This document shows, piece by piece, positions 525 to 63,816 of a DNA stretch of 64,000 nucleotides (its first letter is position 1; each line of letters opens with the position of its first letter). Source of the stretch: Antedon bifida (Eukaryota; Echinodermata; Crinoidea; Comatulida; Antedonidae). The translations under genes and the position numbers were made by a program. Under the pieces are notes generated by a model. The model searched no databases. It was not told where the DNA came from and saw nothing but the letters and a program-made list of their open reading frames with translations. The stretch lies in NCBI GenBank assembly GCA_963402885.1, contig OY727097.1, positions 26,343,401-26,407,400 on the forward strand, written 5' to 3'.

Positions 525-3184
525 CAATGCCATACCGCTCTGAACCGCCAACTGTGGTAAATATGACAGCAACCACTCTAACGTTTGACGTCACTTGGAT
601 TCTTGGTGAAGACTATGGAACAGGAACAATTACAAAACGGAAGCTTTCGTATAAATCATCGCAAATGGATATTATAACAGAAGAACAAGATAATAGTTTA
701 ATTGTTATTGCTAATCTCGTCCCAAATACAGAATATCAATTCTATTCTCAATTTTCGAGGATGGTTGGTGGTATCGAGGTAGATGGACCAGCAAGTGCCA
801 TTGGATCAACAAACATGATATGTACAAGTAAGCAGATAATAACAATAATAATTCATTGAGTAAACTAAAAACTATATTATGTTACCACTGTCGGTATTAT
901 TATTACTTAAGAAAGTGAAACCGTACATAACCATGTATGTTTATAATGTACATTTTTATTTGCTGATTTCTAATCAATAACATTAATTAATATACAGAAC
1001 CTTTGGTCGAACCTGAAATAGAATTGAAAGCTGTTAACGAAAATTGTTTCATCTTGGGTCTAAAGGTATAGCAATAATTTTAAATAACATTTCAGTTGTT
1101 TAAATTGTACAGTTTTATTCTACTGCAAAAAATGATAAAAAATTCAAGCATTATTCTGCTGCAATAAAGAATAATGTATGTTATAATTAATTTATATCAT
1201 AATTATAATTAGACGGTGTAAGTATATGTTTATTATTCACGTTTCTTACTGCGTCTCACTAAGTTGAACCAGGGAAGATCACTTACAGTATCAACGTCTT
1301 AGATTTGTTTCATTTCACAAAACAACATAACGGCAAACTTTATTGTCCACGTAAAATGTACCTTATCTTTTAGTCTTCCTTCTTACTATTTCAATTAATT
1401 TATTTACTTCTATTATTCAGCCCGTTTCTGATGAGTATGATCAAATCCAATGTAACTACATTCTTCGATACCAAGTGCAATACTCTGACATAGATGGAAA
1501 TATACAAGGTATAATCAATACAACAAGCAGTACTCAATTGGAAGTTGAACTATCAGGATTGTCAAGATGTACTGCGTATGTCGCCACCGCTCGAGTTGTT
1601 AATAACATGAACATCCCAGGAAGCTGGGGACAGGACATATTAGTACAAACAGCTCCGTCAGGTTGGTTCGATAGCCATTCATATCGTTCTTTTACATAAC
1701 CTTTTACTTTTGTTGCGAAACACTAATTACAGTGTTTCATTATTATAATACTTATTTTTTTTAAATTAATTTATTCTGTGTTCCAATAATAGAACCATCA
1801 ATAGAAAGTAATCCATTCACAAATGGAACACATTTGCTGATGAATTGGAAAGCTTCTACGTGTGACATCCTAGATTATCAGGTGACCTACTATTATGAAC
1901 TATCAGGCGACAGAATATTTCAGCATGGGAAAACAACAGAAACTTCAGTAGCAGTTGGCATAGGCATTGGATCAAGTGAAGAATATACATTCACAGTATT
2001 AGCGTCATATTTAAAGGTTAATGGGACATCGGACAATAAAAAAATTATGTTTGAAACTGATTGTGAAAATAACCCAAACCAGACACAAGGTACGGAGTGT
2101 AACATACATTCCATAACTTATATTTAGAATTCTATTTTAGGGATATCTTAGCTCGTCGTTTCGTAGAAAATGCCATGTCTACATGGACAAATATTCAAAA
2201 ATGATATCTATCAACGAATATTTTTATTTATATTTTCCAGGTTACGTAATAAGTTTTGTAATTGGCTCAATAATTTCGACAGTGATTACAGTTGCTATTA
2301 CTTTGATATTAAAACGGTAAAGTAAAGTTTTATAGATGAAAATAAGACTGTAGGCCTAATGACTTAGCATAGCTCGACGAAAATGTTTGTCTGTAAAAAG
2401 GTAGTTAATGCGTTGGCAATATAGTTACATCAAAACAACTTATGTGAACTTTATTCAATCAATCGTACAATTTTTATAATGGTAACCATAATAAGGTATA
2501 ATATTACAGTAGATTTATAAAAAAAAACAATATAAATATTAATTATAAAATATCTACAATGATTATTTACAGTAATGATAATAATAAACATTCGTAAATA
2601 TGAAAAAAATGGATTAATAATTAAAAGATTGAATTTACAAGTAATATTTTGAAATGTAACAAAATGGTATTTAAGTAATCCGTTTAACTAACTTGCATCG
2701 GACTTTTAATTAAACATCTTGTTTAAAATTCAATTGTTTCATATTTAACCGTATTGCCAACATTAACTACTTAAAAAAACCACAAGACACTTTGTCCGTT
2801 TACACCCATTGGCCAATGATGAAGTCAAGTCAAGTCAAGTATCATTTATTATCATTTGTTTTAAGAAAAAACATAGAAATTCTGTTTGCTCTGTTGGCAG
2901 AAATACAACTACTCAAACTTTTTATTAATTTTAGGTTTAAACATTCAGAAAAGGACGTTGGTAAATCCTCTACTCAACACAATGTATGCACAATAGATAC
3001 TGTTTATCAAACGTTGTCAAAAAAATATGAAGAAAGTGCATATGAAGATATTAAGCCTACTGATACTACTTCTTCTGCTGAACACGTTTACGCAAACCCC
3101 GAGGACGTACTGAAACACGTTTATACAGAATTGGAAAAGAGAGAATACAAACCAGTAGTACCACCGAAGAAACATTTGCTGTAG
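525..3184 (+). CDS. R1: Tie-like-ectodomain receptor with short tyrosine-rich tail (3' part of gene)
   Basis: C-terminal half of the first array member; signal, N-domain, Ig and EGF exons lie outside the window. Exons: 525-827 (FN3-1), 998-1065 and 1421-1661 (FN3-2), 1793-2089 (FN3-3), 2241-2316 (TM), 2935-3184 (tail, TAG stop). All have AG/GT borders and consistent phases (1,0,1,1,2). FN3-1 carries the family's [21 protein letters not shown] signature; the TM reads YVISFVIGSIISTVITVAI. The 83-aa tail is the longest of the short tails. It has five tyrosine motifs: TVYQTL (ITSM-like), SAYEDI (matches the ITIM consensus S/I/V/LxYxxI/V/L), VYANP (YxN, Grb2-type), HVYTEL and EYKPV. A polyA-type AATAAA follows at 3208. 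The role is inferred: a surface receptor recruiting SH2 proteins when phosphorylated. Its ligand is unknown. Confidence 0.85.
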
Positions 3185-3639
3185 CCTATTCAGTAGCAAC
3201 AATGAAGAATAAACTTTTTCGACATATTTTTCCTTTCTATTTCATTGCAGTAAACAATTGCTGTATGCTGAACATTTTCAATTACTCCAAAATGGTCACG
3301 TGGTGACTGAATTTATATTTACATTTAAATATTCCCAATCATGTATTCTTTATTATCTACTACTATAAGCTTACTAGAGATAATTATAAGGAATTTGTTT
3401 CTTTTTTGCGTATAAGAGTACTAATTTGCATAAAACTGATACAACTTCTTATTGACGCAGTATAACCACTCAAGAATGGTCTTGAATGTTTGTTGGCCGT
3501 GAAAACTACTTTTTTTTTCAATATGGATAAGTATATTTTGCATAACAGCCTATTTTTAGTAATTTTGACCGACATAAATGTAACTCTGTTCTTCGATTTT
3601 AAGTACAATATTCAGACGTGAATATTAAAAATTGAATTG

Positions 3640-3975
3640 TTGTACCGATTATGTTGTGAATACTTGAGTCTTTAAAACAACCTGGATATCGCTGAAAAGC
3701 TGGGGAACCGCGGACAGGACATACTAGTAGGCCTACATCTTCAGGCCTGTTAGTCACGTGACTTACTAAACATGGTACCTAAACAAAAGACGTATACATT
3801 AGTAACTACTGTATTTAATAATTGATTTTTTATTCCAATATAGAGCAATCGAAGAAAACCATTCATTCACAAACGGAACACGTTTGAATAAAGAGGAAAG
3901 CTTCAACGTGCGACAATCAGGTGTACTATAATGTCGGGTGATGGATTATTTCTGCAAGGTGCTGTAATATAACAG
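3640..3975 (+). pseudogene. fossil FN3 exons of a dead receptor copy
   Basis: Decayed sequence matching the 3' end of FN3-2 (around 3677-3725: the CTGGATATCGCTG and GGGGACAGGACAT words seen in intact copies) and then FN3-3 (3842-3975: [11 protein letters not shown]-like start, KASTC region, dropped codons and frame breaks). It is on the + strand, in array orientation, between R1 and R2. No usable reading frame remains. Confidence 0.7.
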
Positions 3976-4129
3976 AAATTTGTCTGTCAGACAATAGTGA
4001 TTTGTTTTCTTCTCTTTTACAAGTGAAATTATTGTTTTTCTACGAAAGGAAACCTTTATTAAAACTGCAACTAAAAGTAGCAAAGTCTGATTTTATTAAT
4101 CTTCATTTTTAGTCGACACTACATCTTAA

Positions 4130-4840
4130 TTACATCCACTATTTCTATGGAGTACAGAACGATGACAGTTGGTATTGAAGAGTCTGTATAGATCTCAGTA
4201 AAGGTGGTGATCTTAACGAGACAAAACTACGGCGATGAAATACACAATCTGAGGTGTAATACGTCTGCTGTGATTGATAACATGATGATGATGAATGAAA
4301 GATGATGACGTATATTAATGTTACACAGGTGATGGTATCATGACACTTATAGTTAGAGGTAAGTCTTTACACAATAAGCTTTATTATTTCTCTCTTAATC
4401 TACACAATTATAATTATGTTTTTTTAAAACAGGTTCTAGACGTCAGATCAAGACTGCACAATTATGTTTACTCGTGTAGCAAATCGTCTAGGTATTCTCT
4501 GAAATCTTTAATAAGCCTAATTATAAGAGGCCTACAGTAGCAATTATGTATTTGTATTGATTTATACCATATGACTTTTATTCAATCCAATATACAATAT
4601 ACTTTCTCTGTATAAGAATATAAATATTTGTATAAAATCCATATACCTATTGGATAATTGCTGAATGTATGTTGCCTTTTAAAATTTGTCTTTGAATCAA
4701 ATCAAAACAGGTTGTGGAAATAACAACTGGGGCCTTGACTGCGCCATGTTTCCAACGGGACATATTGCTATGGAGGTTTGTTATGTCCAATTGGCTGCAC
4801 ATGCACTAATGGTTTTGGAGGAAACGATTGTAAACAAGGT
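4130..4840 (+). pseudogene. fossil Ig and EGF2 exons of a dead receptor copy
   Basis: Ig-exon relic at about 4130-4360: it starts like the [10 protein letters not shown] segment, has an in-frame stop and deletions, and still ends in the family's GTTAGAGGTAAGT donor. An EGF2-exon relic follows at about 4711-4838 (GCGNNNWG start, CTCTNGFGGNDCK-like end, donor GGTTTG). EGF1 is missing. The relic order FN3 then Ig means these pieces are either the tail of one dead unit and the head of another, or one rearranged unit. Confidence 0.75.
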
Positions 4841-6368: not shown

Positions 6369-6374
6369 ATGAAG

Positions 6375-9300
6375 ATGTTGGCTAAACGTATCGGCCTGGT
6401 CATAGGTCTAGCTTTCTCTTTGATGATTCAATCCGGATTATCAGGTATGAACCAGAATTATAACTTGTAATTGTTTTTTTTCTTGGCTGTATTTTATTTA
6501 CATGCGGACAGTCCACCCTTTATTCTTAATCTATATTCTTCATTAATCTTTAAATATATTCGTTTTCTTCTTTTTTTTGGAATATGAAAACACGCATTTT
6601 GAAGATTAGAAAGTACTTTCATCACAATTCAATTTACATTTACTTTAAAGGTCCTAATTTTGTATATGAATTTCAAAAAGTATTGGTAACCTTACTTGTT
6701 ACTTGTTTGGTTAGCCGTCATGATTGAGAACACCAGGTCGTCATTGACTGGTTTAAGTAGACATTACATTGCCTTTGCGTTTACTAATTCTCACTTATTA
6801 GCTACACAGTTTCTTTCTCCAAAAATGTTGCCTATTTACTCGTTCACCTTTATTAACTTAGGTGGCAGTAACGTGACTAACGTGTCTAATAAGTATCACA
6901 AAATATTATATTTTTCCTCAAACATGCTTGGAAACACAGGGTTCAGTGAGTCATACATTAGTATAACAACTCTTCATCACAACTAGAACATCAAGTCCTT
7001 TATAAAATAGCCCTATTCCCTATTTCACACTTTTCCTGGGAAGATTGTTTTACTTATTAAACGTTCTTGTTTGGTTGTATTTTATTTTGCAATTTACATG
7101 CAATTTGGCTTCTTTTCTAGCCAAGATGCGTAATATTCTTAAATGGAAGAGTTTTTACAATACAAAGAATATTGTTAAATTGTTTATTTCTTAAAGATCC
7201 CTTAGATATAATGGCATTTACTGAGAGAACACTAACGCATAGTTATAGGAATAGTTGGTTTCGAGGATACGTACTTGAAGACGATAATGACATTCGGGAT
7301 TTATCAGTTGGAATATTATACAAGAATATTGACGGAAAAGATAACGTGACTTGGAATGATACTGATTATGTGAGTGGTGGTCACAGTAGTCATTACCATA
7401 GGCCTATGCCAGACGGTAAAATATTTCACACAAGTAGCAGTATTATATACCGAGTTTTCAATGACATCGCGTATCTTGGTGTTAACTTGCACCAGACTGA
7501 GAGTGTTGGTGTGTTTTCTGTTCAAGCAAAGAGAAGCGAAGTAGTAACAAAGACAGCAATTGTATTGACATCTTACTCTGGTGAGTAATGTCATGATGTA
7601 TCTCATTTTCTTTTAATAAAAGTGATCAAATTTGTTTCAACATAATATAACACTGTTAATTACTAAGTATATTATGAATAATAGGCATGTATCCACAAAT
7701 GACGTAGCGCTGGCCTTCCAACTGCTGATCCATGAGTTGGCCTCCAGGTTACCAGTTTAGACACTAGGCTACTCTTCCACCTTTTTCACTGATCAGCAAA
7801 TACTGTTTGGACTTAGACTATAAGCAACCGCCTAGAGATCTTTTTATTTTATTCTTTTTAGTGTCCATGTTTCACACCTGTACAGTAGGACGCTCTCCAC
7901 TGTTGAATACTCCTTCCCAATTTGGAATTCCAGATATTATCTAATCTTTTCATGTCATTGCCTTTCTTACTTGTAGGCCTATATCTCCAGTAGTGGTTTA
8001 CTTTTACAATACAATTATTATATTATGTTACAGCCATTATTGTTATGGAGTATAAAACGATAACCGTCGGTATTGGAGAGTCTGTCACTATCAATCTTAG
8101 TAAAGGTGGTGATCTTAACAATTTACGTTGGAGACATAATTACGATGATGAAATACACAATCTGAGGGGTAATACGTATGCTGTGATTGATAACATACGG
8201 ATGAAAGATGATGGCGTATATGAATGTTATACAGGAGAAAGCCCAGATGGTAACCATGGTATTATGAGACTTATTGTTAGAGGTAAGTCATAATTGTTAG
8301 CTAGAACATTACAATCGGAGCTAAAATTTTAATTTTAATAGTTACATGGTCGGATCAAATTTACATTGTTGAAATATTTAATTGATGATAGGGCCTGCAT
8401 AACTCCACATTATTATGATTTTGGAATTAAACATAATCGTCAATATTCTGTGAGATCTTAAAGAAGTATTGTACCCCAAAAACATGAAAATGAAAATTAA
8501 TAAAATCAGACTTTGAATAGGTCATTTTGTGGTTTTAATGAAGTTTATAATTCCGTATAAAAAAACACTACTAATAATGTTTTTACTTCGTCAATAAACT
8601 GTTAAATTGAATCAGAAACCTGTTGGTTGACAGTCAATTTTTTGCTTAGAATAATTATAGGTTTTTTTCAGGTAAATAATTGTTCCGATCCAGTTTTAAG
8701 TCAAAGTGAATAACTATTGAAATGGCATATTCAACAGAAAAATGTTTTAAAAAAAAGGTTTCAGAGGAAAAATATTATTTTTAAATACAAATATGATAAA
8801 TCAATTTGTATTGGTTGGGAAATCAATACCTTATTTTTTAAGAGGTTATATCTTAACCTTTTTATTATAAACTAGATATTTTCTCGATCGGTTAAGGAAC
8901 AGATAAATTCGCTCGCACATAATTGCAAATGCCTGTTTGCCTTTTAAGTTTGTTTTTCCCTACACTGTTTCAGCTTGTCCCTCGCCAAAATGGAATGTCC
9001 CAGATTGTGAAATGGACTGTCCTATCTGTTATAATGGTGGAATTTGTGACCATATGACGGGTGTCTGTATTTGCCCAGCAGGATTTAAAGGCACTAATTG
9101 TCAAACTGGTAATTAACATAATACTGTAAATGTTATAAATTATGTTATGTTATTATGTAAGTTTATATGGTAGACGGTCCGAACTTGATCGTCCACGATG
9201 ATGCAAATCTCGAATCTTTAACTAAATTATGTTGACAGGTTGTGGAAACAACAACTTTGGTCGTTACTGCAAAGTTGTGTGTAATGGCCAGAGCAATTGT

Positions 9301-12300
9301 AATGGAAATCTGATATGTCCACCGGATCCAGTTGGATGTACATGTGCCAATGGTTTTGGAGAAAACGATTGTAAAACAGGTTTGTTGTGACATACGATGG
9401 TCTTTACGTTTGCAATTTACGTTATCCAATCAATTTAGCTTTCCGCCATTTAAACAAAATAAATGAATAACATTGTCTTTTTTTAAATTACTTTGTATCT
9501 TTTTAAATAGCAATGTTGACATTTTATTTTGTAATTTACGCTTAAAAAGTATTGAATTTTTTTTTTCTTCCTAATACTAAAATGTAAAGTAAAATTGTTA
9601 TATCTATAAAACGTTAGATAAATTTTAAAAGAGTGAAAGAAAACCATAATAAAATATTGATTAAACCAAAGATTACTAGAGCCAAAGAATGTCAGAATGA
9701 AAGATTGTCAGAATAAAATATTTTCAGAGTGAAATGATGTCAGAGTGAAAGATTGTCAGAGTTAACGAATGCTAAAGTTAAAGATTGTCAGATTAAAAGT
9801 TTGTCTGAGTCAAAGTTTGTCAGAATCAAACATTTCAGGGTCGAAACTTTGTCAAGAGTAGAAGATTGTTAGAATCAAATTTAAAAAGTGTCCTGAACTT
9901 TTTTTTTATCTTTAAGCGTGTGAGGTTTTATACCCAGACACCATTGTCCCAGATGAGGATTTATACTATGGAGCGGGATGTCGGCAAAAATGTAACTGTG
10001 CCAATGACGATTGTAATCGAAGTCCAAGCCTATCGAATGAAGACAAAGGATGTACTTCCGGGTCAACATGTGCTTTTGGTTTCACTGGAGCAAAATGTTT
10101 AGGTTTCAATACATTATTTTATTTTATGTTGTTCTCTTCATCAACTATTCACCAGTCTGTGCTGCCTTTTCTCCAAAAAGACTTGACACTGTCTTTCTGA
10201 CTGTTTTATTTTACTGTTTTGATCTCGCTTTCTACTTATTTATTTCTGTGTTGATTACCTCTCTGTGTTGATTACCAATCGTTTTGTACATCTCAGTCTC
10301 ATCATTTTGTTTAAAAAAACCCACTATCGCTATTTTATCAAAATAGCGATATTAGGCGTTTTTTCATTTAATGATGTATCCTGAACTATTTACATTATTC
10401 AGTTAAATAATTATATACTATGTTTTTAAAGAGCCTACTTCATGTTCATCTGGATTCTTTGGTGTTTTGTGTAACTTTCCATGTCACTGCAATGACTCTG
10501 AAGATTGTAATCGAGATGGAAGTTGTTCTAATGGATGTCACGAGGCTTGGGCTGGACCAAACTGCAGCATAGGTAACTAAACTACATTAATAAATAGTAT
10601 AAATGTATGCGATATAGATCAAAGACACAGTCGTATCATTGTATTAGTAGGCTTATTGTAGTGGTCGGGTTTCGTTGTTTAAGCATGTAAAATTGTAGAG
10701 TACTTTCGTACTATATATAATAGTTAGATGGTTAGGTATTAGAGCTACAATAAAATATAATTTATAGTGCATTTCCTTTTATAATTAGCGTTACCATACC
10801 GCTCTGAACCGCCAACTGTTGTAAACCAGACAGCAACTATTCTAACTTTTGACGTCACTTGGATTCTTGGTGAAGACTATGGAACAGGAACAATTACAAG
10901 ACGGAAGCTTTCGTATAAATCATTGCAGATGGATTCATTTATATCAATTGATGAACCAGATAACAATTTTTTTGTTATTGATAATCTCATCCCATTTACG
11001 CAATACCAAATCTACTCTCAATTTTTTAGGATAGTTGGGGGTATAGAGGTAGAAGGACCAAAAAGTACAATTGGATCAACAAATACTATATGTAAAAGTA
11101 AGCAGAATGCCATCGAGTAAAGTACACAGAATAGTACGAGAGTGTTCAATCAATAAATATTCGTAGATGTACTGTATAGTTTTTATAACTTAACTCTATT
11201 CTATACAGTCCCAATCCGCTGGCAAATTTGTTTTTCGTATGACGATTTTTGTATCTAACTTAACTTTACAGTAGGCCTACTGTAAGAGCGAAGAAATAAC
11301 AATTATTATATTGTTCTTTCTTCGCCCCTAAGCACACTCCCTCCTTGATAAAACAGTTTACGTTAGCTTTGTTGTTCTTTTTGCCACACAATCAATATAT
11401 CATATTACTTCTTACAGTTATTCATCAATTACATTTCGTATTTTATAGAACCTTTGGACGAACCCGAGATAGAATTGGAAACTGTGGAAGAAAATCGGGC
11501 CATCTTGAGTTTAAAGGTATATTTAAAAATAGAAAACTAACATCTTAGGTTTTTAATTACACAAACACAACCCAACAATCAATGAAACTTAATGCTCGTC
11601 CGTTTTCATTTTTCACAACCACATATTATAAAAACAGTCTATACATTTGTTCTACCATACTCGTTCAACTCATTTTTTCCTAATAAATATTCAGCCAGTT
11701 TCTAGTGAGTATGATCGAATACAATGCAACTCTATTCTTCGATATCAAGTGCAATATTCGGACAAAGATGGAGATATACAAGATGTAATCAATACAACAA
11801 GTAATACTCAATTAGAAGTTGAACTATCAGGGTTGTCAAGTTGTACTGATTATGTCGCCTACGCTCGAGTTATTAATAACCTGGATATCGCTGGAAATTG
11901 GGGACAGAGTATTACAGTACAAACAATTCCGTCAGGTAGGTTAGTCCACTTACTAAACTGGGTTCCTAACAATATTTTTACATTTGTCGTGAAACAATAT
12001 TACATTCTTAAATTATTATGCTTATTTTTATTGATTTATTTTGTATTCCAATAATAGGGCCATTGGTAGAAAGTAATCCATTCACAAACGAAACACATTT
12101 GCTGATAAAGTGGAAAGCTTCTACGTGCGAAAATGAGGTGACCTACTATTATGACCTGTCAAGTGATGGATTATCTCAGCAAGGGATAACAACAGAAACT
12201 GAATTTGTATTTGGCAAAGACACTGAGTCATGTAAAGAATATACATTCACAGTATTGGCATCATATTTAAGCGTTAACGGAACATCTGACAGCAAGAAAG

Positions 12301-13086
12301 TTATGTTTGAAACAGATTGTGCTAACCAAGAAGACAACTCAAACCAGACGCAAGGTGTGTAACAACTTTTCTTTATTTCTGGTTGGTATTGAGTTGATTT
12401 TCCTCAAAAAGCTGGCACGTTGTTGAGGAAACACATACATATAAATATGTCCTTTTATTTTTTCCAGGTTATGTAATATGTTTTGTAATTGGCTCAATAA
12501 TTTCGTCAGTTATCACAGTTGCTATCACCTTGATATTTCAACGGTAAAGTAATGTTTCTATGGGTAAAAAGAAATTAAATTTTGACTAACACAGTTACTA
12601 TTAAAGTTCTTCTAACAAAATAAAAGTAGTTATCGTTGCAATAAATCAATGGAATTTGCAAGTGAAATTAGAAAATGTAGGTAGGATTTGTTTAGTTAAT
12701 TCTTTTACCGTACCGACACAGAATTCTATTCCATTTTTCCATAATAGATCATTATTTTTATGAAAATATTGCTGACAAATCCCACAATGATACTTGATCC
12801 TTTACCTTCGTTGATCGATGAAATATAACACAACTATTAAAACTTTACTAATTTTAGATTTCGTCGTAAACATTCAGAAAAGGAAGTTGGTAAATCTACT
12901 CAATCCTCTACTCAACACTATGTATGCACAATAGATACGGATTATCAAACTTTGTCGAAAAAATGTGAAGAAAGTGCATACGACGATATTAAGCCTACTG
13001 TTGCTACTTCTTCTACTGAACCCGTTTATGCAAACACTAAACCGCCTGTCGCGGAACATGTTTATGGTCACACGATTGAAAAATGA
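6375..13086 (+). CDS. R2: complete Tie-like-ectodomain receptor with ITIM-like tail
   Basis: Thirteen exons give about 841 aa: 6375-6444, 7197-7580, 8034-8282, 8974-9108, 9239-9379, 9917-10102, 10432-10572, 10789-11097, 11449-11516, 11695-11935, 12058-12354, 12468-12543, 12858-13086. Every border is AG/GT and phases are consistent. Residues: signal 1-23; N-domain 24-151; Ig 152-234 (lone Cys in DGVYECYTG); EGF1 235-279 ([20 protein letters not shown]); EGF2 280-326; EGF3 327-388; EGF4 389-435; three FN3 436-740; TM 741-765; tail 766-841. Tail motifs: TDYQTL (ITSM-like), SAYDDI (ITIM consensus), PVYANT (YxN) and HVYGHT. The start was placed at the ATG aligned with that of the other copies; an in-frame ATG lies 6 nt upstream. 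AATAAA is at 13308. The Ig-EGF1-EGF2 order and spacing resemble vertebrate Tie2, but there is no kinase. I infer an inhibitory or adaptor-type surface receptor. Confidence 0.88.
8457..8760 (+). mobile_element. MITE-like interspersed repeat in R2 Ig-EGF1 intron
   Basis: The segment begins TTAAAGAAGTATTGTACCCC and shares words with 33385-33800 and, in reverse complement, 35840-36060: AAAACATGAAAATGAA, a TTTGAATA..TTTTGTGGTTTTAATGAAGTT block and a GGTAAATAATT...TCGATCC...GTCAAAGTGAATAACTAT block. TTAA at the left edge suggests a TTAA-targeting (piggyBac-like) non-autonomous element. No coding capacity. Confidence 0.5.
9680..9880 (+). repeat. decayed 16-bp minisatellite in R2 EGF2-EGF3 intron
   Basis: About a dozen diverged units of the form AGAATGTCAGAATGAA / AGATTGTCAGAGTGAA, the same 16-bp period and core (ATGxCAGAGTGAA) as the array at 5054-5657. 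It sits in the homologous intron, just before the EGF3 exon. Confidence 0.8.
10325..10350. repeat. short perfect hairpin in R2 EGF3-EGF4 intron
   Basis: ATCGCTATTTT and its reverse complement AAAATAGCGAT are separated by a few bases. It has no obvious role and may be a remnant of a small palindromic repeat. Confidence 0.5.
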
Positions 13087-42452: not shown

Positions 42453-42537
42453 ATGTTGGCTAAACGTTTTCCAGACTGTATCCGTCTAGTCATAGGCCTA
42501 GCTTTTTCTTCTTTGACGTTTCAATCCGGGTTATCAG

Positions 42538-47254: not shown

Positions 47255-47320
47255 CACATGGCGTGCAATAGTACGCACTATTAAACGATCGTTTAATAGT
47301 ACTTTTTTTTCGTGTACGAA
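47255..47320. repeat. palindromic interspersed repeat (copy 2)
   Basis: GTGCAATAGTACGCACTATTAAACGATCGTTTAATAGTAC...CGTGTACGAAA is the reverse-oriented relative of 26051-26115. It lies in the R5 FN3-2 internal intron, next to the hAT element. Confidence 0.7.
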
Positions 47321-47419
47321 AAAAAAATCTTTTCGCGTTTGGAAAATATTTCTTTTATACTACTGCTTTTGAAAACAACAGCGCCACCTATTTTGTATAG
47401 AAACATAATTAGTCTAGAT

Positions 47420-48236: not shown

Positions 48237-49082
48237 GTCTAGATGAGTTTCAGTCGTATTTAGCTAGGCCTAGGCTTGTTAGTATTAGGCCTAGAACTAG
48301 GCGTTTTAGGCTTGCTAGGCCTAGGATTGTGTGGTCGTTTGTTGACATAATTGACAGTAGGTGCATTTATAAACTCCATATGAATATAATATTTGATATA
48401 ATATTATTAAAAATCAAATGTTACTGTTTTAATAAATTTCAATCTAACGTAGGCCTTGCCTAGGCCTACCTTTTAGTTGATTCAATTGACAGGAATCTAT
48501 TTAGATTTTAAATAAATCAAATGTTTTATATTCGTGTAGTGGTACAAAAATGATATATAACCTTTCATCATTCATCAATGCCATTTTTTGTACCATTACA
48601 CTCATAAACAATCATTGTTTGTATAATATATTATTCTTAGTCTGTTTCGTATGATTATGATCGAATCCAATGTAACTACATTCTTCGATACCAAGTGCAA
48701 TACTCGGACATATATGGAAATGTACAAGATGTAATCAATACAACAAGTAGTAATCAATTGGAAGTTAAACTATCAGGATTGTCAAGTTGTACTGCTTATG
48801 TTGCTAACGCTCGAGTTGTTAATAATATTGAGATAGCTGGTGATTGGGGACAAGACATAACGATACAGACACCGCCATCAGGTATTTATAGTCATTTTAC
48901 TAAAAAATAAGTAAATAATGTGTTTATTCATTAATTTATTTGGTCAAAATCAATTTCAATAACAAGTACACAATCAGAAAAATACAATAATAGAAATGAG
49001 AGTTAAAATGGTAGAAAATATTAAAAAATAAATAGAAATATATGATTAAAAATGTTTTTACATGTTAGAAATGTAAATAATG

Positions 49083-49130
49083 AAGGTATATATATATATA
49101 TAAATAATGAAGGTATATATATATATAATA
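49083..49130. repeat. duplicated (TA)n microsatellite
   Basis: AATGAAGGTATATATATATATA is present twice in tandem, in the R5 FN3-2 to FN3-3 intron. Confidence 0.7.
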
Positions 49131-49813
49131 AAAAGGTATTTTGAATAGTTAAAAAATGATCAAGCAGGTTGTTAAAAATTGTTTTTACTTTTACTTGAAA
49201 TAGAGTTGAGATATATAGAGAAAACAACGTTAGTATAAAACTTCACTGTTCATAATTTTATAAGCTTATGGTATTATAAAGATTGGTCTTTATGCTGTGT
49301 TTCACCACTACAGAACCATCGATAGAAAGTAATCCATTCACAAACGGAACATATTTACAGATAAAGTGGAAAGCTTCTACGTGTGACATCCCAGATTATC
49401 AGGTGACCTACTATTATGAACTGTCAGGTGATGGAATATTTCAGCAAGGAAACACAACACAAACTGAAGTTGTATTTGACATTGAGTCAGGTAAAGAATA
49501 TACATTTACAGTATTAGCGTCATATTCAAATGTGAATGGGACATCTGACACCAAGAAAGTTATGTTTGGAACAGATTATGATCACCAACAAGAAGACAAC
49601 TCAAACCAGATAGGAGGTGTGTAACATCATTTATCTTTAGCTTTTTAGATTCAGTTGAACCACAGGCACGTCATCAATAGAAACAATAAAACAAATATAA
49701 AATGTAATGTGATAAAAAGTTACTTCTATAATGATCCAATATAATGTCAAGATTGTAAGATTATATACATTTCCAGAGAACTCGACGTTTCGCCTACTAA
49801 CAGCAAGGCATAA

Positions 49814-50431
49814 TCATAAGTGAATACGTTCTGGTGACGTAACGGTGACACGGTTGAAAGGAGCCATTGTGAAGTTTACGGTGGTGTTATCCAAGCGGGA
49901 TGTGCGGGGGTCGGTCTCTGTACGTTTTAGAATGTTATCGTAATTGTGCGATAGTTCATATGCTCCTTCATCTCTATTCATATTATTAGGGTGTAATCTT
50001 ATATGTATCGCTTCTTTTATTTTTCTTGTGTTCCATTCAGTTCCTTTTGCTAAGATTTTGATGTTGTTACAATTGGGTGTGTGACCAAGAGTCGCCATAT
50101 GATCCGTGATAGCCGAGCTGTGAAACATTTCTGACGCCGACGTTCTGCTTGATCTGGTTGAAACACCTTTGCATTGTTCTACAACTTCGGTTTTATGTTC
50201 TTTGATCCTGGTCTTCAGCGCTCGTCCTGTTTCTCCAACGTACATACTATTGCAGTTGTGACAGTTCACTTGATAAACAACACCACAAGTGTCTTCTTTT
50301 TTAATTTTGTCTTTTGGGTGTACTAACTGGTTTCTTAACTTGTTTTCAGGAATAAAGTATGTGTTAATGTTATGTTCTTTTAGGCATCTTCGTATTCTTT
50401 CCGACATAATTTGGGATATATGGAATTCCAA
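49814..50431 (-). pseudogene. Penelope-like element GIY-YIG endonuclease part
   Basis: A 205-codon open frame with the GIY-YIG-type core: CGVVYQVNCHNC, then MYVGETGRALKTRIKEH, a His-containing DHMATLGH, and the conserved Glu in KIKEAIHIRL. This is the C-terminal nuclease of a Penelope-type polyprotein. The upstream linker to the RT (50432-50646) is shifted or stopped, so the protein is not intact. The last codons run into the left terminal repeat. Confidence 0.85.
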
Positions 50432-50646
50432 TACTTCCTTTTTTTCTTTCTAAGTTTTCATTCTTTTCTGCATTGTCGTTCTATCGCATGCTGATAGAGC
50501 ACTTGTTATGATTTTAACTTCATTATCTTGTTATTTTTGCGTGGAAACAACATTCTGTCCACAGGTGTGCTCACAACACTCAATTTATGTTGTAATGGGT
50601 GACATGAATGAAAGTGTAAATATTGGTTGGTATGAGTAGGTTTTCT

Positions 50647-50970
50647 TTAAACTGATGTAGTAATTTTGTTGACAATGAGTGAAATGGAGACGTCTAGGAA
50701 AGGTATAGTGTTATTAGTCATATGTTCTGTTGTGAAAGTGATGTTGTGTGTGGGATCGATTGAGTTAAGATGATGATTAAGGTTGTCAACAGCTCCTTCT
50801 GGAACAACTGCTAAAACGTCATCTACGTATCTTTTCCATATCAGTGGCTTAATTTCTGTATTAGCTGTTTTAAGTGCTTCCTCTTCTAGCCATTCTAGAA
50901 ATAGGTTCACCACAATAGGGCTCACTGCCCTAAACTTCACAATGGCTACTTTCAACCGTGTCACCGTCAC
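50647..50970 (-). pseudogene. Penelope-like reverse transcriptase fragment
   Basis: The catalytic WKRYVDDVLAVV box is followed by LNSIDPTHNITFTTEH and IPFLDVSI, typical of Penelope RT palm and thumb. Only the second half of the RT is present; its first codons derive from the right terminal repeat, so the element is 5'-truncated at the repeat junction. Confidence 0.85.
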
Positions 50971-51991
50971 CAGAACGTATTCACTTATGATTATGCCTTG
51001 CTGTTAGTAGGCGAAACGTCAAGTTCTCTGGAAATGTAAGTACCGATATCATCTTACAATCTTGACATTATATTGGATCATATAGAAGTAACTTTTTATC
51101 ACATTATATTACCAGGTCCAAATGAACCTATTTAACAAAATATTTTTATATTTCCTGGTTACGTTATAAGTTTTGTAATTGGCTCAATAGTTACAGCAGT
51201 AATCGCAGTTTCTATCACCTTGATATTAAAACGGTAAAGTAAAGTTTCTATATTTAAAAAATGGAAGAAATTAGATGACTTCCATAGTTAAGATCAACTC
51301 TTTCTGACAAAAGTGGTTAATGGTGGCAAAAGAGTTTGTAAAACAATCAAAATTCAGGAATATAAATGTGTTTAATTAAAATTTTCATCTTACAGACACC
51401 TAACTTCCTTCCTTTACATTTTTGACTTTTTATTCTGAATTGAAATCTTTCATATATAGACAATTTTTAAGGTTTTTAATTTCATCATTTTGGCAACCTA
51501 ATAGGCCTATTTGACTTACAAAGAAATTGTTTACACTAAACGGCCTAACATGAGTTAAAGAAAACAACCAAGGAATATAAGAAAGCTAGACTTAGATTTT
51601 CAGCAAAATATAGGTCATTACTTTTATTTATTTTGGCATTATTTCCACCGTTAAATACTGAAAAACTGAACCAAGACGCTTCTTTACCCGCGTTGACCGT
51701 TGATGAAATATAAAAACTTTTCTACACTTTAATTTTACATTTAGAGGAAAACACTCAGAAAAGGACGTTGGTAAATCCTCTACTGCTCAACCCAATGTAT
51801 GCACAATAGATACTGATTATCAAACATTATCGAAAAAAGATGAAGAAATGAATATGAAGGTATTAAGCCTACTGTTGTTGCTACTTCTTCTGCTGAACAC
51901 GTTTACGCAAACCCGGAGCCGCCAGTACCGGAACATGTTTACGGCAATACGATTGATAAATGAGGAATACAACCGAAGAAAAAGTCTATAG

Positions 51992-54865: not shown

Positions 54866-57800
54866 ATGTTGGCTAAACGTTTTCCAAACTGTATCCGTCT
54901 AGTCATAGGCCTAGCCTTTTCTTCTTTGACGTTTCAATCCGGATTATCAGGTATGATACATAGTGTAATTGGCTTGTTTTTTGTCATGTCTTTTGTGGAA
55001 TTATTGGTATACCTTAAGCGGCCTTTTTTATTTCATTCTTTATTTTAGTCTTTTGTCCACCATAATGTTTAATCTTCATCGTTCCCGAATATTTATAAAA
55101 CTATATATTGCTTTATGAAACCATTTACCACATTTACGCAATGTTTACAGTTACACAATATAACAGACGTAATTCGTTTTCACTAAATCATCTTAAACCT
55201 TTACTCTACAATAATAATATTAAAATATGTTTAGTCATTAATCCTACCTTTACTTAATATTCTGGTTTTCTCACGTCCTCATCAAAAACATGACAAGTAT
55301 TTATTAACGGTTTGTTTTCAACATCATTTAACACCTTTTTTTCAATTATTTTTATGTCTGTTATAATATATTTTAACTTTATATTGGACAGGTGCGTTTC
55401 GAAAAATATAGTAAGGCACAGGAAAACAGCACGATTGCAGATAGGCATACTGCAATAATTATTTGTTGAATATAATCCACAGGATATACCAATCCTACGC
55501 ACACTCACTGTATCAATCAAATACCATTAGTCAATAAACTGTCTTTATGACTGTAAATAATAATGCCTAGCCATGGAGGAACAGCTTTTAAAAAATTAAA
55601 ACTTACCAGATTGCAAAAAGAATCATCCACTTTACAATAGACAGAAGTTTACTACATATACTTAAAAGCAAGACAAGTTAAATAACTAAACACTAATAAC
55701 CACCATGGCTTATAATCACTATTGCTTTTTTATTTTATTTAGATCCCTTAGATATAACAGTATATTCTGCAACACCATCTAGTAGTGAGTTTCGAGGATA
55801 CGCGCTTAGAGAAGACAGAGACATTCGAGATTTGTCAGTCGGAATATTATACAAGAATATTCCTGGGAAAGACAACGTGACTTGGAATGATATTGGTACA
55901 GTCAATGATGGAAGTAAAATTTTTCCTGCAAATAGTAGGGTTTCACATCGTTCATTGAGGGATCTTTTCACGTATCTAGGTATTGCTAACTTACAACCCC
56001 AGACAGATAGAGTTGGTGTATTTTCATTTGAAGCAAGGAAAGGTGAAGTAGTCACAAATTCAGCAATTGTATTGCTGTCTAATTCTGGTGAGTACAATAA
56101 TGCCATGATGTATCTCATATCATTTTTAAATGGAAATGAAAATGTTTGTAACAGCACTTTATTGATGGTTTGTTAATACAGCTACTATTGTCATGGAGTA
56201 CAGAACGATAACCGTCGGTATTGGAGAGTCTGTCACTATTAATCTTGGTAAAGGTGGTGCTCTTAACGATTTACGTTGGAGACATAATTACGGTGATGAA
56301 ATACACAATCTGAGGGGTAATACGTCTGCTGTGATTGATAACATACGGATGAAAGATGATGGCATATATGAATGTTATACAAGTGATAGTCCGGATGGTA
56401 ACCATGGTATCATGAGACTTATTGTTAGAGGTAAGTCAATCATAATATCACAGCTGTTTTTACAAAGTTATCATTTGACACAAATAATTTTTGATAAAGA
56501 GCTATAAATTAAACGCCAGATCAAGATTTGTATTATGTAGGCCTACTTAAATTCAAACTCATTTTTTGATGGGACTAAATAATAAAATTTTTCAGCTTGT
56601 CCCTCACCAAAATGGAATCCTCCAGATTGTGAAATGGACTGTCCCGTATGTTATAATGGCGGAGTGTGTGATGATAAGACGGGTGTCTGTATTTGCCCAG
56701 CAGGATTTGAAGGCACTTATTGTCTAGAAGGTAATGGCATGCAATGCATGCAGTAGAATAGTTTTGATGTCATCGATATGTTTAAATTCATTATAAAAAA
56801 TGTGATTCAGGTTAATTGGTGTTCAATAGTCGAAACTTTCACTGTGCTTTGATAAACACTGAAATAACCCCTTATTGTTAAACACCCCGTTATAATATCG
56901 TCCTCCAGGTACAATTTAGGTTAACGACTTGAAATAATATAATAGGTTTGTGATAAAAATTAAAGAACATACACATAATAGGCCCCAATTTGGAATATAA
57001 TCCGCAATAATGGATCCGATAATATTCACAAAGTGATCAATGTATGTATACTGCCTGTTATTAGGCTGTGGAAATAACAACTGGGGTCGTAAGTGCGAAG
57101 TTGTGTGTGGTGGTAGTAACAGATGCAGTGGAGCTTTACTATGTCCCCCAGATCCAGTTGGATGTGCATGCATTAATGGTTTTACTGGGAACGATTGTAC
57201 AAAAGGTTTGTAGCATATTATAGTTTACCAGTGGCCTTCGTCCATTCATTTTAGTTTCACCTTCGAAGTTACTTTACTTTACTCTCTAAACTATTTCCGC
57301 CTTTGTTATTGTTATTTTCACTTTGTGTTTTATAACCTTTTTAAAAATCATTTTCAACCTTCTATTTTGTAGGCCTATTTTTAACGCAACCACGATAATT
57401 GTTATTTAATTTTTTTAATTTTTGTTGAAAAGCGATCTATAAATTAATCTTAATATTATTATATCTTTTCTCTACATTCATAACGTACAAACAAATGTGC
57501 TGTTACTATTTGAAATGGTGATTCTCTTGCACATTAGGCCTATAAATATCACAGTAAAATAAAGTCATGACATTGAGTACACTCAATCTATCGAGATGTT
57601 TATGCATATGCCTACTCATAAATCTTGTATGGTGATGGTCATTTGTTACAGTTATACATGAAATTTTTTTTAATAATCTAGAAAAGAACCCATCTCGAAA
57701 AGAAGCCCATCTTGATCGTGGGCTTCTTTTCGAGGTTTTATGGTTTTACGGTACGACTTTGAAATCGCAACTGTGTACAGAGAACTATGCCTAATTCCTA

Positions 57801-60800
57801 TTATCGATTCAATTGTTGTTGTTATATTTAGTAGGCCTAATTTTAGTTGTTGTTATTGGGCTACAAATCAGAATAATGTTTCAATGGAATCATTCACTTC
57901 TTCCATGTTTTAACCTATTATGTTTTTAAGCGTGTACGGATTTATACCCAGACGACACCGATGTCTCAGATGAGGATTTATACTATGGAGCAGACTGTCG
58001 GCAAAAATGTAACTGTGCCAATGAAGATTGTAATCGAGGTATAAGCAATTTAGATATAAACATAGGATGTGCTTCTGGGTCAACATGTTCGTCTGGTTTC
58101 ACTGGAGAAAAATGTCTAGGTAGTATGATAACATTAAGTCTTCTTACCCCCTACATAAGTGTATAATGCATTGACTGTATGATAATTATCTATGTGTTTA
58201 AAAACATAGAAATAGTTCATTACTGACATACCCATGTAACCAATGAGTTAAATATACCGACTATCGGTCAATAATTATTGCAAAACACTTCGAAACTGTT
58301 ATTTTGCTTTGAAAGTAGTTAATATAATACCAATTATGCTCTGTTTATAAAGAGCCTACGTCATGTCCGTCTGGATTTTTTGGTGTTTTGTGTAACTTTC
58401 CATGTCACTGCAAAGACTCTGAAGATTGTAATCAAGATGGAAGTTGCGGTAATGGATGTCATGAAGCTTGGGCTGGAACAAACTGCAGCATAGGTAAGGA
58501 AGGCTAAATTAATATACGTCATTAAGTATTTATTTGTTTTATTCAATTTTCTGCCATAGGCCTATACAATACAAAGCAAAATAAATATAAAAGGCAAGAA
58601 AAGACCAAACAGGTGCTAAACACCTATGCTAGTTGGTCAACCCAGAATATAGGCTACAATTAAAGCATGTACAAGAAAGCGACCAACTACACACATTTTC
58701 AATATCAAACTTATTTAAAAAGAAATTGTTAACCCAATTGCACTTGGTTCATCAACCTCAATATCACCAATTATCCTCGAAAAAGGAAAGTATAATTATA
58801 TGTGAATGTAAAATGTATCATAACTTACTGTTATTAGTAGGCATAATGGTGTCCTTTCACTGTGAGGTACAATAAGGTAATACGATAGCAGAGAATTGGA
58901 CATTGTTGTTAAATAATTAATCATGATGCTTTGCATTTCTTTAATAATTAGCATTACCATACCGCTCTGAACCGCCGACTGTTGTAAACCAGACAGCAAC
59001 CACTCTAATGTTTGACGTCACTTGGATTCCCGGTGAAGACTATGGAACAGGGACAATTACAAAGCGAAAGCTTTCGTATAAATCGTCGCAAATGGATTTG
59101 ATAACAGAAGAACAAAACGATAGTTTAATTGCTATTGATAATCTTGTCCCAAATACAGAATATCAATTCTATTCTCAATTTTCGAGGTTGGTTGGTGGTA
59201 TTGAGGTAGATGGACCAGCAAGTGCAATTGGATCAACAAAAACCATATGTACAAGTAAGTTATAAACAGAATGTTGAAATCTTTTTTTCAAACCACACAC
59301 TGCTCGTGATTCAATAATACAATTAAACCTAAATATTATTATTATATTTTTTTTTCCATTATAAGTATACATATAGTTATATTTATATATGTATTTAATA
59401 AAGTAAAACAAATGGCATACGAATTTAGCCAATTCGTCACACATTTGAAATGTGGCTCATGGGAACAATGTCAACTATGAGGCAATATTTCTACACTACC
59501 CTTAAACAACTTATATCTAATATACTTGACTAGTTTTAACACATTATGATTGTTGGCCAATTGACTGGGGTGTATATTTGAAATTAATATATTTTATTTA
59601 TCTGAAATTATATGGCTCTACAATCTGCAAAGCACATTGCGTATCTATGGATTGCAGTTCGTATACATATTGTATAATTTTTCTTTGTTTCTACTTATAA
59701 TATAGAACCTTTGGATGAACCTGATATTGAATTGAAAACCATTGAAGATAATAAGGCCACCTTGAGTTTAAAGGTACATTTCAAAATTCTCAGCTTTATT
59801 ATTAGTTGTTAACAATTCACTTTGAATCGTTGTCACTCACAATATGCGATGTGGTCCAAAAAACAAATGAATAACTAAACGAAAGAAGAACTATTTATTA
59901 TAAGCAACAATGCAATGATTTAATCATTGAGAGTACCGTTTCTTTCATATAGAACAGAATTTTGTTTACAAAATGTATCAGATACGTTGTATTATTTGTC
60001 AGAAAGAGACTATACTCCTAAGATAAAATTTAATTTATTTTTATTATTTGCATTTCTAAGCGTCCATTATGTCATAATCAATACAGAGGGTAAAATCATT
60101 TTCTTGTTTTTTTTATTAAACTTTTTGTTTTCTACTGTTTTCAAAAGCGTTACAGTTTAATACAAAATGTTTAATCTTTGTGTGCAAAAACATGTGGTTT
60201 CACTTGACCACTTAAGCAAGTTGTAGACTGATATCAAACATTAAACTTTAAACTGGCACCATAAAAATGTGTTTTGTCAATTTGTAATTTTTTAATTTCG
60301 GTTAGGGTGTAAATAAATGTATTTATTCATATATATTTTCAGCCGGTTCCTAAGGAACATGATCGAATCCAATGTAACTATATTCTTCGGTATCAAGTGC
60401 AATACTCGGGCATAGATGGAAATGCATCAGATGTAATAAATACAACAAGTAGTTCTCAATTAGTAGTTGAAATATCAGAACTATCAAGTTGTACTGCTTA
60501 TGTAGTCAACGCTCGAGTTGTTAATAATTTAGAGATAGCTGGTGATTGGGGAGAGGACATAACAATACAAACAGCACCATCAGGTAATTAACTAAAGTAG
60601 GCCATGATTTTAATTTAACCTAACATAATAAAGCCTTCATTAGAAAAGTTCATATTCATTTTGATTCGCTGTAACTGTATTTTGTCTTTATGTCTTTTAT
60701 GTGTAAACTGACTTTGGGGTTGGGTCAACCGGCTCAGCTACAGTGATTAAGTTCACTTAGGTTGACCCTGGTCTCCCCAATTTCAGTTTTTTTTGTTTTG

Positions 60801-63800
60801 TATATACTTAAATAGACCAAATAAATAATGAAATGAAATGAAATAATACTATTTTAAATTTAATTAAATTCAAATTTTATTTCGGAAGTATTATCCATAT
60901 AAATCCAAAAGAAAACTGAAAGAAAATGAACCCTAAAACTGTACACAAATATTCATTTCACTATGGAAATACTCTATGCAGAGCTCACGCATGTAAAAAA
61001 ACTTTAGAGTCAAAACGCATACCGTAGATTGGCATTTGGAAACAAGAACTATGAATAGGCCTATAGTGTACACTCCTTAAAAAAGTTTGAAATATAAACA
61101 TATTTTATTATGGTGTAAAAATATATCTCTAATCCTACCTCTATCCTAATATAATTTATATGCTAATTTTTCTGGCACTAGAGCCATCGATAGAAGATAA
61201 TCCATTCACAAATGGAACACATTTGCTGATAAAGTGGAAAGCTTCTACGTGTGGCATCCCAGATTATCAGGTGACCTACCATTATGAACTGTCAGGTGAC
61301 GAAGTATTACAGCAAGGAATAACAACAGAAACTGAAGTTATTTTTCACGAAGGAATTGAGTCATGTAAAGAATATCTATTCACAGTAATGGCGTCATATT
61401 TGAATGTTACTGGGACATCTGACTCAATACAAATTATGGTTGAATCCAGTTGCGACAACCCTGACAACTCGGACCAGAAGGAGGGAGAAGGTTTGCAAAA
61501 TAATACATGATCTTCCTTGTTTTTTTTTGGTATCTACTGTGTATAAGTTCTTAAAAGAAAGACATATCTTATCTCAATGTAGATAACATAGTGTGATTGC
61601 TTAAAGAAAAGCTTGGTGTTTCTATGTTCTACTGTTAACAGAAACAAACAAATGTTGAGGTAAAAATCTCAAGCAATTCTCGTTTGCATTAATTGTAGGC
61701 CCTATTCATTCATAGATCTTAGCCTAACTCGTGCGATGGTCATTACATTCCTACAATATAATACATTGCTGCATAGTTTATGTCTTCTTCTTTCCCTGAT
61801 CTAGCTGTCATGTTGACAAATGTTCAATTACTATTACTGTCATGGATAACAGCAGTGAAAAGTTTACCGCTAACAGTATCCACATTACTTCTATTATTAT
61901 TGAATAATAAATGGAATCTGTATCTGTAATTTCAGAATCTGGATCACCAATTGGTGTGATAATTGGCTGCCTGGTTCCTGCATTGTTGATACTTATTCTT
62001 GTGCTGATATTAATTAAACGGTATATATGTTATTATAATTGGCATTATGTTGTTATTAATATATAATAATATTACTTTTGTTCCCATTATTTTAATTGTA
62101 TTAGTCTTCTTTTTACGACCTCAAAATCTGTCACAACAAGTAGCATCTCTTTCCTTTTTTTTGTAACATTTAGACGTAGAAGCAATAAAGGTAAGCCTAC
62201 TGGTTTATCAAGCCATGCCGTATCCATCGGTGGTGTATCTCGTAAAACAAAACAAGAGCAAAATATTGAAGGTAAGTTACTGATTGTGAGAGGGGGAGAT
62301 ATGAGTGAAGAAGGATTAACGAGTAGTACAGTAGTCGTGTATAGGTCAAAGTTGATTTTGCGATATACAGTGATCTACAGTACTCTTTCTATTATTGAGA
62401 ACTTACTTTTTAAAATAATATATTTATACATATGATTTTATTACTCATAATATGGCCTCCTTTGCGTATAAAGACAGTGCTTATGATGAAGTAAGCGGTG
62501 CCTATGATAACGTGAGGGGTGCCAGAAACTCTTCAAAGAAACCAGTACACATTGAAGCTGATGCCGAACATGAAAATGATTATCAACCTGATTACGAAAT
62601 TGACCAGGAACCCGTGTATGGCAACACACAATTGGAAAATCAAGAATACAAACCAATCGAGTTATCTAAACTTCATGACTATGTGATGAAGCGTCAAATA
62701 AGTGTTGAAAGTGGCTTTGAGAAAGAGTTTGAGGTGCGTTAAAAGACATTATATTGGTATTTACACTCTACAATTAATACTAATAATGTCCAGTTTATTA
62801 AAACAAAATGCTTTTCAAACTGCTTGAATAATTACATTGACACAGGTATAATATATTGTTAGTGCCTGTATTAAATCCAGGATTCTGGTTTTCAAACTAC
62901 GTAACAACAAATAAAGCAAATGTTTCTCCATTTCTTTCCTTCCCATCATGCGTCGCACATTCAAGCCTTTTACCGCTCTCCGTTAAACCATTACTTTAAC
63001 CGTGAGCACTATACTCCGTCGGTTTAATCAAGCTTCTTTCTTTTTTATATATCTAAAGGATCTTGGCAACAAGCCCTTATTCCCCAGCACAGTCGCAAAG
63101 TCCTCAATAAATAGGAAGAAAAATCGATATGCGAACGTAATTCCATGTAAGTTAAAATGTTATTACTTCATAATTCATAGTACCGGTAATTTCTTATAAT
63201 TATATATATTATGTATAGTTTTTATGTACATCTTCATTATGATCAGCTGAACGTTTTCGTAAGTTCTAGCCTAGTGAATTGTACTGTATTTTATTTAAAT
63301 TTAGATGACAACACCCGTGTGGTTCTTGACAAGATTGAAAATGTTCCAGGATCCGATTACATTAATGCTTCGTATCTAGATGTAAGTTTAAAAATGTGAA
63401 AATTGTATATGTTCATAAATTTTATGATAAAATGGTCAAATTATTGTTTGAAATAATATACAAGCAGCTAATTTACTGTAGTTGTACTTTATTGTAGTTA
63501 TGATATCATATTACTATATTGATTAATAATTGTTCGTGTAATTGATAAAAGCTGTTTTAAAAAAATGTTAAGTTGTACTTTTTCAGGGATATACAATACC
63601 ACATGAGTTTATCGCATGCCAAGGTAAGCTTTAATTCAGATACTTAGTAGAATTTAATGAGTTTATTGGTGTTTGTATTGTTTAACGTATTCATTCTTTA
63701 CTATTTTATAATTTCCAGGACCAAATGTGGCTTCAGTCAATGATATGTGGAGAATGGTCTGGAAAGAGAAGTGTCGAGTGATTGTCGTAGTTACGAATCT

Positions 63801-63816
63801 TGTTGAAGGAAACCGA
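54866..63816 (+). CDS. R6: receptor-type protein tyrosine phosphatase with Tie-like ectodomain (3' end beyond window)
   Basis: Exons: 54866-54950, 55743-56087, 56182-56430, 56596-56730, 57065-57205, 57931-58119, 58353-58493, 58952-59254, 59706-59773, 60343-60583, 61182-61490, 61936-62020, 62174-62271, 62474-62733, 63059-63146, 63305-63381, 63587-63623, 63719-63816; 983 aa so far, phases consistent. Residues: signal 1-28; N-domain 29-143; Ig 144-226; EGF1-4 227-428; FN3 x3 429-735; TM 736-763 (different sequence from the others: VIIGCLVPALLILILVLILI); juxtamembrane 764-883 with SAYDEV (ITIM consensus), GAYDNV, PVYGNT, QEYKPI; phosphatase from 884. Phosphatase motifs: KNRYANVIP, SDYINASY, FIACQGP, MWRMVWKEKC and VVVTNLVEG, the standard order of a classical PTP. 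The catalytic HC(x)5R lies outside. The expected role is dephosphorylating tyrosines at the membrane, possibly those of the neighbouring receptors. Confidence 0.88.
57694..57734. repeat. perfect 16-bp stem hairpin in R6 EGF2-EGF3 intron
   Basis: CTCGAAAAGAAGCCCA (57694-57709) and TGGGCTTCTTTTCGAG (57719-57734) with a 9-base loop. A second GAAAAGAACCCATCTC just upstream resembles the left arm. Probably a repeat remnant. Confidence 0.7.

Follow-up and report, generated by a model that had tools for sequence, protein, structure and literature searches.

The window analyzed in this work is a stretch of 64,000 nucleotides (nt) from the crinoid Antedon bifida (assembly GCA_963402885.1, contig OY727097.1, positions 26,343,401 to 26,407,400), which carries a tandem array of predicted receptor genes with Tie-type ectodomains. 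In our searches of the genome (315.6 Mb in 27 contigs), the window corresponds to C10:26343401-26407400. Self-comparison of the window (blastn, E down to 0.0) revealed a colinear set of repeated exons along the + strand, far above chance, and the exon models were built on shared acceptor and donor sites (GT/AG) and on phases that are consistent across units. The exon order is A (signal), B (N-domain), C (immunoglobulin, Ig), D-G (four EGF-like modules), H, I+J, and K (FN3 modules), L (transmembrane segment, TM), and M (tail). The window contains five units with short tails (U0-U4) and one phosphatase unit (U5). Each of U1-U5 starts with an ATG/signal exon of its own, as do U0 and a further unit, U-1, upstream of the window. 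An earlier note, made from the letters of this sequence, had proposed six units of one layout plus fossils. The layout is indeed colinear from A to M, with the reservation that U0 lies partly outside the window and that U3 and U4 are damaged, and the fossils are present as decayed J, K, C, and E pieces (Table 1).

By its predicted protein, U5 is a receptor tyrosine phosphatase with two protein tyrosine phosphatase (PTP) domains, namely, a TM protein with cytoplasmic PTP domains as defines the receptor-type PTPs (RPTPs). Pfam Y_phosphatase (PF00102) matches U5 in two stretches (E 5.5e-117), and the best solved-structure matches of its phosphatase part are PTPRS and LAR. The first domain (D1) has KNRYANVIP, WPD, and an intact HCSAGAGRTG, such that the C(X)5R loop and the WPD aspartate are present. 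The second domain (D2) has WPN and HCLNGVCRSG. Motifs that span exon ends were joined by eye. The catalytic-loop exon lies at 65094-65231, beyond the window, and PTP exons were found up to about 68421; the remainder of both PTP domains is located within 4.4 kb after the window.

The array runs about 37 kb further upstream of the window. In this part, U-1 is another short-tail unit with uninterrupted exons, and the tail exon of an inverted unit lies in an open frame of 289 aa, within which tyrosine motifs such as IEYNNI recur. An inverted RPTP lacks the catalytic Cys codon TGC (GTACAC-AG vs. GTACATTGCAG in U5) and has WSD in place of WPD, such that D1 of this copy is without the catalytic signature. 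The proposal that the array ends in a phosphatase is thus right for U5, but a catalytically broken RPTP stands inverted at the other end. Likewise, the five units with short tyrosine tails were seen in U0-U4, with U-1 as a further case, but the tail of U4 is frameshifted. With the exon queries used, no other family exon was found within 100 kb on either side of the window. A search of 264 kb at E 0.05 found no PTP exons near U-1 to U4; those present lie only near U5 and the inverted RPTP.

For the ectodomain, comparison of U1 with PDB sequences (phmmer) placed three Tie2 entries on top (E 3.8e-26, 6.3e-25, and 6.6e-25), followed by contactin-1 as the next family (E 1.8e-4), in agreement with the Tie-type ectodomain suggested earlier. 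The alignment with Tie2 covers the end of Ig and EGF1-EGF2, and the FN3 part of U1 has weak matches to Tie2 (E 0.0096 and 0.019). Because Pfam finds few domains in the whole models (FN3 over the cut-off, EGF_2 over it in U5 only, and Ig under it), the Tie assignment rests on the comparison with solved structures. The N-domain has no PDB match at E 10 and no significant Pfam match; two weak Pfam matches, at E 0.049 and 0.13, are each confined to a single member. It might correspond to Ig1 of Tie. As in Tie1/Tie2 (TEK), FN3 modules precede the membrane, and the Ig-EGF-EGF stretch can be aligned directly to human Tie2. In contrast, the EGF-like modules number four, Ig is absent between EGF and FN3, and a phosphatase or a tail takes the place of the Tie kinase. 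The family has the Ig-EGF ectodomain of Tie, but no cytoplasmic tyrosine kinase was found at its clusters among the best 131 of 779 candidates, and the loci that were read have either PTP exons or tails. An ectodomain known on a kinase is here found on a phosphatase. Among echinoderms, one study names two surface markers of Asterias as a PTPRF-like protein and a Tie-2-like kinase receptor, and it cites SpTie1/2 of sea urchin (PMC13409769).

Outside the clusters, we also observed a single-copy Tie-like gene (L045, L047-L049; C10:2523001-2555000, - strand) with Ig, EGFs, FN3s, and TM (Tie2 E 6.3e-34). No kinase or PTP motif was found in 30 kb read downstream of this gene, which is placed at C10:2.555 Mb.

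Short tails and the juxtamembrane exon of the phosphatases

A short-tail query had 30 matches in the genome, of which eight (E 2.9e-8 to 1e-4) are juxtamembrane exons with PTP exons next to them. All eight were fetched, and in each the exon extends past the point at which the short tails end. Seven clearly run through EEYKPIELS or a near variant, and L027 has SQEYKPIELS after a longer insert. One of these exons reads DYQTLSKKYEQNEYEGVQ...PVYNNTELDNEEYKPIELSKLHDYVRKRQLSVENGFEKEFK, which is a short tail plus the remainder of the exon. In the RPTPs, 21 nt lead from the last shared codons to the TAC of EEY (GAATTAGATAATGAAGAATAC). In 9 of 17 short tails (U1, U3, U4, L034, L035, L037, L038, L043, and L044), there are 19 nt instead, and the remnant lies one frame off. 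A TGA is brought into frame in eight of these nine, and L035 still spells out EEYKPIELS past the stop. It is clear from these alignments that the short tails correspond to truncated RPTP juxtamembrane exons; the units that carry them are, by their exons, relatives of RPTPs by descent and not phosphatases. The earlier note had called the tails substrate-like; the juxtamembrane homology and the out-of-frame remnants mark them as phosphatases truncated by descent and not as a separate 'substrate' invention.

The tails differ at the cut, and a single truncation event behind all of them is uncertain. The remnant is in the other wrong frame in U2, L036, L039, L041, and L042. Units U0 and U-1 have REYKPVVP and REYEPVVP, respectively, in frame and then have different ends, and L040 ends earlier than the other short tails. 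One 2-nt frameshift common to all short tails was considered and rejected, as a recount supports it in 9 of 17 only. Descent of the short tails from RPTPs stands because it is independent of a single truncation event.

The tails were also examined for the consensus of immunoreceptor tyrosine-based inhibitory motifs (ITIMs), [SILV]xYxx[ILV], with two of the 17 tails (U4 and L044) read across a frameshift. Such ITIM-like motifs occur in 16 of the 17 short tails, whose rows are related and do not count as independent cases, vs. 2.9 expected from residue shuffles. The long tail of the inverted unit has the motif four times. At the SEYEGI site, the short tails have SxYxxI, while 6 of 10 juxtamembrane exons have NEYEGV or NEYESV. 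As the earlier note had put it, one ectodomain type is attached to both tyrosine tails and a phosphatase, as seen in the short-tail units and U5. Similar ectodomains on tails of different signaling type and the ITIM consensus, both seen here, are two features of paired immune receptors.

We estimated the ratio of nonsynonymous to synonymous divergence (dN/dS) by the Nei-Gojobori method between units of the window, with the damaged U3 and U4 included; for the tail, six pairs were used, with U4 and U5 left out. The values were below one throughout, namely, 0.45-0.74 for the N-domain, 0.23-0.48 for Ig, 0.34-0.56 for EGF, 0.34-0.52 for FN3, and 0.40-0.77 for the tail. The N-domain has a dN of 0.10-0.31, roughly three times the 0.06-0.10 of Ig.

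Family copies across the genome and their reassortment

Scoring of all 63 candidates identified 62 copies of the N-domain exon in the genome. These are located at C10:6.41-6.81 Mb (29 copies), C8:13.07-13.19 Mb (12), this array (9), C8:33.73 Mb (4), C10:11.02-11.13 Mb (4), and elsewhere (4). The tail type of each copy was set by the position and strand of neighboring tail, D1, D2, and juxtamembrane exons. By this assignment, 14 copies have D1+D2 (including the broken inverted RPTP), 7 have D2 only, 19 have a short tail, 1 has the long tail, and 21 have no assigned tail. The short-tail units are spread over three contigs (C8, C10, and C12). All three D2-only loci that were read have a juxtamembrane exon followed by WPD-less D2 exons (WPK, WPE, and WPK) and no D1. 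Genome-wide PTP exon counts are lower bounds, as 150 of 299 candidates were scored. The four N-domain copies that diverge most (32-36% identity) adjoin D1 and D2 exons, which favors an order of phosphatase first and tail later. The next four most divergent N-domains are those at C8:33.73 Mb, which have no assigned tail. That both PTP domains accompany the most distant copies suggests that the RPTP form is the older state.

Several observations accompany this census. At C10:6585304-6793885, N-domain/tail exon sets of equal or near-equal score recur with a spacing of about 81 and 65 kb, which is either a recent segmental triplication or an assembly duplication. Further PTP-exon clusters were found at C11:23.4-23.53, 27.2, and 0.11-0.18 Mb, and EGF exons that are 56-63% alike at C11:23.28-23.50 Mb; these loci may represent sister families.

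The N-domain tree includes 38 of the 41 copies with an assigned tail (132 columns; three near-copies of the C10:6.6 Mb triplicate were left out). This tree rejects a clade of all 16 short-tail rows (approximately unbiased test, p-AU 6e-9). It requires 13 changes of tail type vs. a shuffled mean of 17.7 (0 of 200 shuffles as low), and tail type is therefore also clustered. Neighbors with sister N-domains and differing tails include L062/L063 (support 100/99), L053/L054 (99/77), and U4/U5 (92/42). The tail tree (24 rows, consisting of 15 short tails and 9 juxtamembrane exons; U4, L044, U5, and the long tail were not included) has 2 changes and is compatible with a single short-tail clade (p 0.47). 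Since a short-tail clade is rejected by the N-domain tree but not by the tail tree, N-domains and tails have different histories and have been reassorted. Gene conversion or unequal crossing-over between neighbors would give such a pattern.

Explanations for the family and comparison with known systems

We consider it moderately probable that these genes form a family of RPTPs with Tie-type ectodomains, that loss of catalysis recurred among its members, with the binding domain and tyrosines retained, and that the family is used as a paired-receptor set. The ancestor would most likely have been a two-domain RPTP, with copies spread by tandem and dispersed duplication. Catalysis would have been lost in various ways, such as the missing Cys codon, the absence of the whole D1, or the loss of both PTP domains with the juxtamembrane exon cut short; 9 of 17 tails are compatible with one shared 2-nt deletion. 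The ectodomain, TM, and tyrosines would have been kept, and N-domains and tails reassorted among neighbors. If the units are transcribed, members with similar N-domains may meet the same or related ligands at the cell surface. The RPTP members may then dephosphorylate nearby tyrosines, including those in the tails of catalytically dead kin, and phosphorylated tails may recruit SH2 proteins, with SxYxxI binding SHP-type phosphatases and YxN binding Grb2-type adaptors. A more specific version, in which this is an echinoderm self/non-self system with an ancestral inhibitory phosphatase and truncated kin that swap the enzyme for an ITIM-like site recruiting cytosolic phosphatases, is tentative, and we hold it to be doubtful. 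If true, one family would show, through exon loss and reassortment, an enzyme receptor turning into a paired receptor set.

Several points weigh against the paired-receptor reading of this family. All evidence is the DNA sequence of one assembly, and U3 and U4 are damaged as assembled; they may be dying genes or assembly errors. A dN/dS below one among paralogues is compatible with a recent loss of function. Unit U4 is the sole short tail of 17 without an ITIM-like motif, 5 of 10 juxtamembrane exons (U5 included) have one anywhere vs. 3.3 expected, and both the ITIM-like and the YxN motif are permissive patterns passed on by descent. The assignment of tails is positional, with 21 of 62 copies lacking an assignable tail, including all four at C8:33.73 Mb. 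D2-only status was read directly at 3 of 7 loci and taken from position at the rest, and the outgroup PTP loci were placed by position only. The N-domain rows are short, with 14 of 35 inner branches open, and the tail tree places one D2-only row (L072) with the short tails.

Part of these observations would also result from ordinary birth and death of an RPTP family, in which the copies without PTP domains are dying and have no function themselves. The damage in U3 and U4, the J-K-C-E fossil between U0 and U1, the retroelement insertion, the broken D1 of the inverted copy, and the variable truncation frames fit this explanation. We regard it as unlikely in view of the uninterrupted exons of U-1, U0, U1, and U2, the tail dN/dS of 0.40-0.77 in the six pairs, the persistence of the ITIM-like motif in 16 of 17 tails, and the tail common to 19 short-tail units on C8, C10, and C12. 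Somewhat less likely still, the receptors may act in development as membrane decoys for Tie-type (angiopoietin-like) ligands and take no part in immunity or allorecognition. The Tie2 similarity does span Ig and EGF modules, and a Tie-2-like kinase receptor appears among the starfish coelomocyte surface proteins in a published study (PMC13409769). Yet the conserved tail tyrosines would be superfluous in a decoy, and 62 copies with a fast N-domain (dN 0.10-0.31 vs. 0.06-0.10 in Ig) fit diversifying recognition better. It is very improbable that the upstream units supply U5 with alternative 5' ectodomain cassettes or form read-through transcripts with it, an option that the earlier note had named as one that would overturn its proposal. 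Exon L has the same phase as the U5 TM exon, and an L-to-J1 splice would stay in frame. However, U1-U5, U0, and U-1 all start with their own ATG/signal exon, the short-tail units have an in-frame stop in their own exon M, and the ectodomain of U5 is complete. Short tails also occur in other clusters, namely C12 (where no PTP exon is listed beside them), C8, and C10:6.5 Mb.

Vertebrate paired receptors (KIR, LILR, and SIRP) combine one ectodomain family with opposite signaling tails, undergo gene conversion between neighbors, and are usually thought to arise by tail swapping on Ig receptors. These receptors recruit cytosolic phosphatases, whereas some members of the present family are membrane phosphatases themselves. 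In the Antedon family, a phosphatase exon has left an out-of-frame remnant after the stop, which shows that RPTPs were cut down to tyrosine-tail receptors; the direction of this change is thereby readable from the DNA. Compared with known two-domain RPTPs (LAR/PTPRS, PTPRA/E, and PTPRK/M/T), the family shares the tandem PTP domains, the catalytic motif of D1, and the WPN of D2, but differs in its Tie-type ectodomain and in the many kin without D1 or both domains. The nearest working analogy may be the fester co-receptors (FcoR) at the fuhc allorecognition locus of Botryllus, a multigene family of Ig-type receptors with 53 loci and tails that have ITIM, hemi-immunoreceptor tyrosine-based activation motif (hemITAM), or core tyrosine motifs (PMC12065747). 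We do not claim membership in that family, as the domains differ: the FcoR ectodomain consists of V-Ig, sushi, and two C2-Ig, and the accessible part of the source mentions no phosphatase members (PMC12065747). As the earlier note had supposed, no description of a family such as the present one was found in open-access papers (titles and beginnings of abstracts). The family is large, is predicted to lie at the cell surface, and has a fast N-domain, and it occurs in an animal group about whose recognition systems little is known.

Coordinates and minor elements

Table 1. Features of the receptor array, in window coordinates.
Feature	Position	Strand	Remarks
U0 exons H-M (FN3, TM, short tail)	525..3184	+	exons A-G upstream of the window, uninterrupted
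U0 tail exon M	2935..3184	+	SAYEDI, YANP; in-frame end REYKPVVPPKKHLL*
Fossil	3549..4834	+	partial J, K, C, and E exons from decayed units, between U0 and U1
U1 short-tail receptor	6375..13086	+	13 exons, uninterrupted ATG-to-stop frame, 841 aa
U1 exon B, membrane-distal N-domain	7197..7580	+
U1 Ig and first two EGF-like exons	8034..9379	+	site of the human Tie2 match
U1 tail exon M	12858..13086	+	SAYDDI, YANT; stop TGA
U2 short-tail receptor	19325..32570	+	13 exons, ATG-to-stop uninterrupted; retroelement piece in intron 2
U3 short-tail unit	34239..41295	+	2-nt deletion in exon B; Ig exon truncated
U4 short-tail unit	42453..51963	+	TM acceptor TG instead of AG; tail-exon frameshift
U5 RPTP unit	54866..63816	+	ectodomain exons A-K at 54866-61490; continues past the window to at least coordinate 68421
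U5 TM exon	61935..62018	+	ends approximate
U5 juxtamembrane exon J1	62172..62273	+
U5 juxtamembrane exon J2	62473..62733	+	PVYGNTQLENQEYKPIELSKLHDY; counterpart of the short tail
U5 first PTP-domain exons	63065..63816	+	KNRYANVIP, DYINASY, ACQGP, WRMVW

Several minor elements were observed in the window. The retroelement piece in U2 (21783-24449) has a G+C content of 49% vs. about 32%, and has weak matches to aspartyl protease and reverse transcriptase in different frames, both below the Pfam cut-off. A match to GIY-YIG endonuclease, barely over the cut-off, lies in a U4 intron (49814-50449, - strand) and is perhaps a Penelope-like fragment. Exon D of U2 has an extra partial copy at 27359-27450. 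A 16-base tandem array of 38 copies is located at 5053-5655, and a related, more diverged array of about 12 copies at 9684-9873. Elsewhere in the assembly, the mitochondrial contig C27 has AAA codons at conserved Asn positions of ND1, which points to the echinoderm mitochondrial code.

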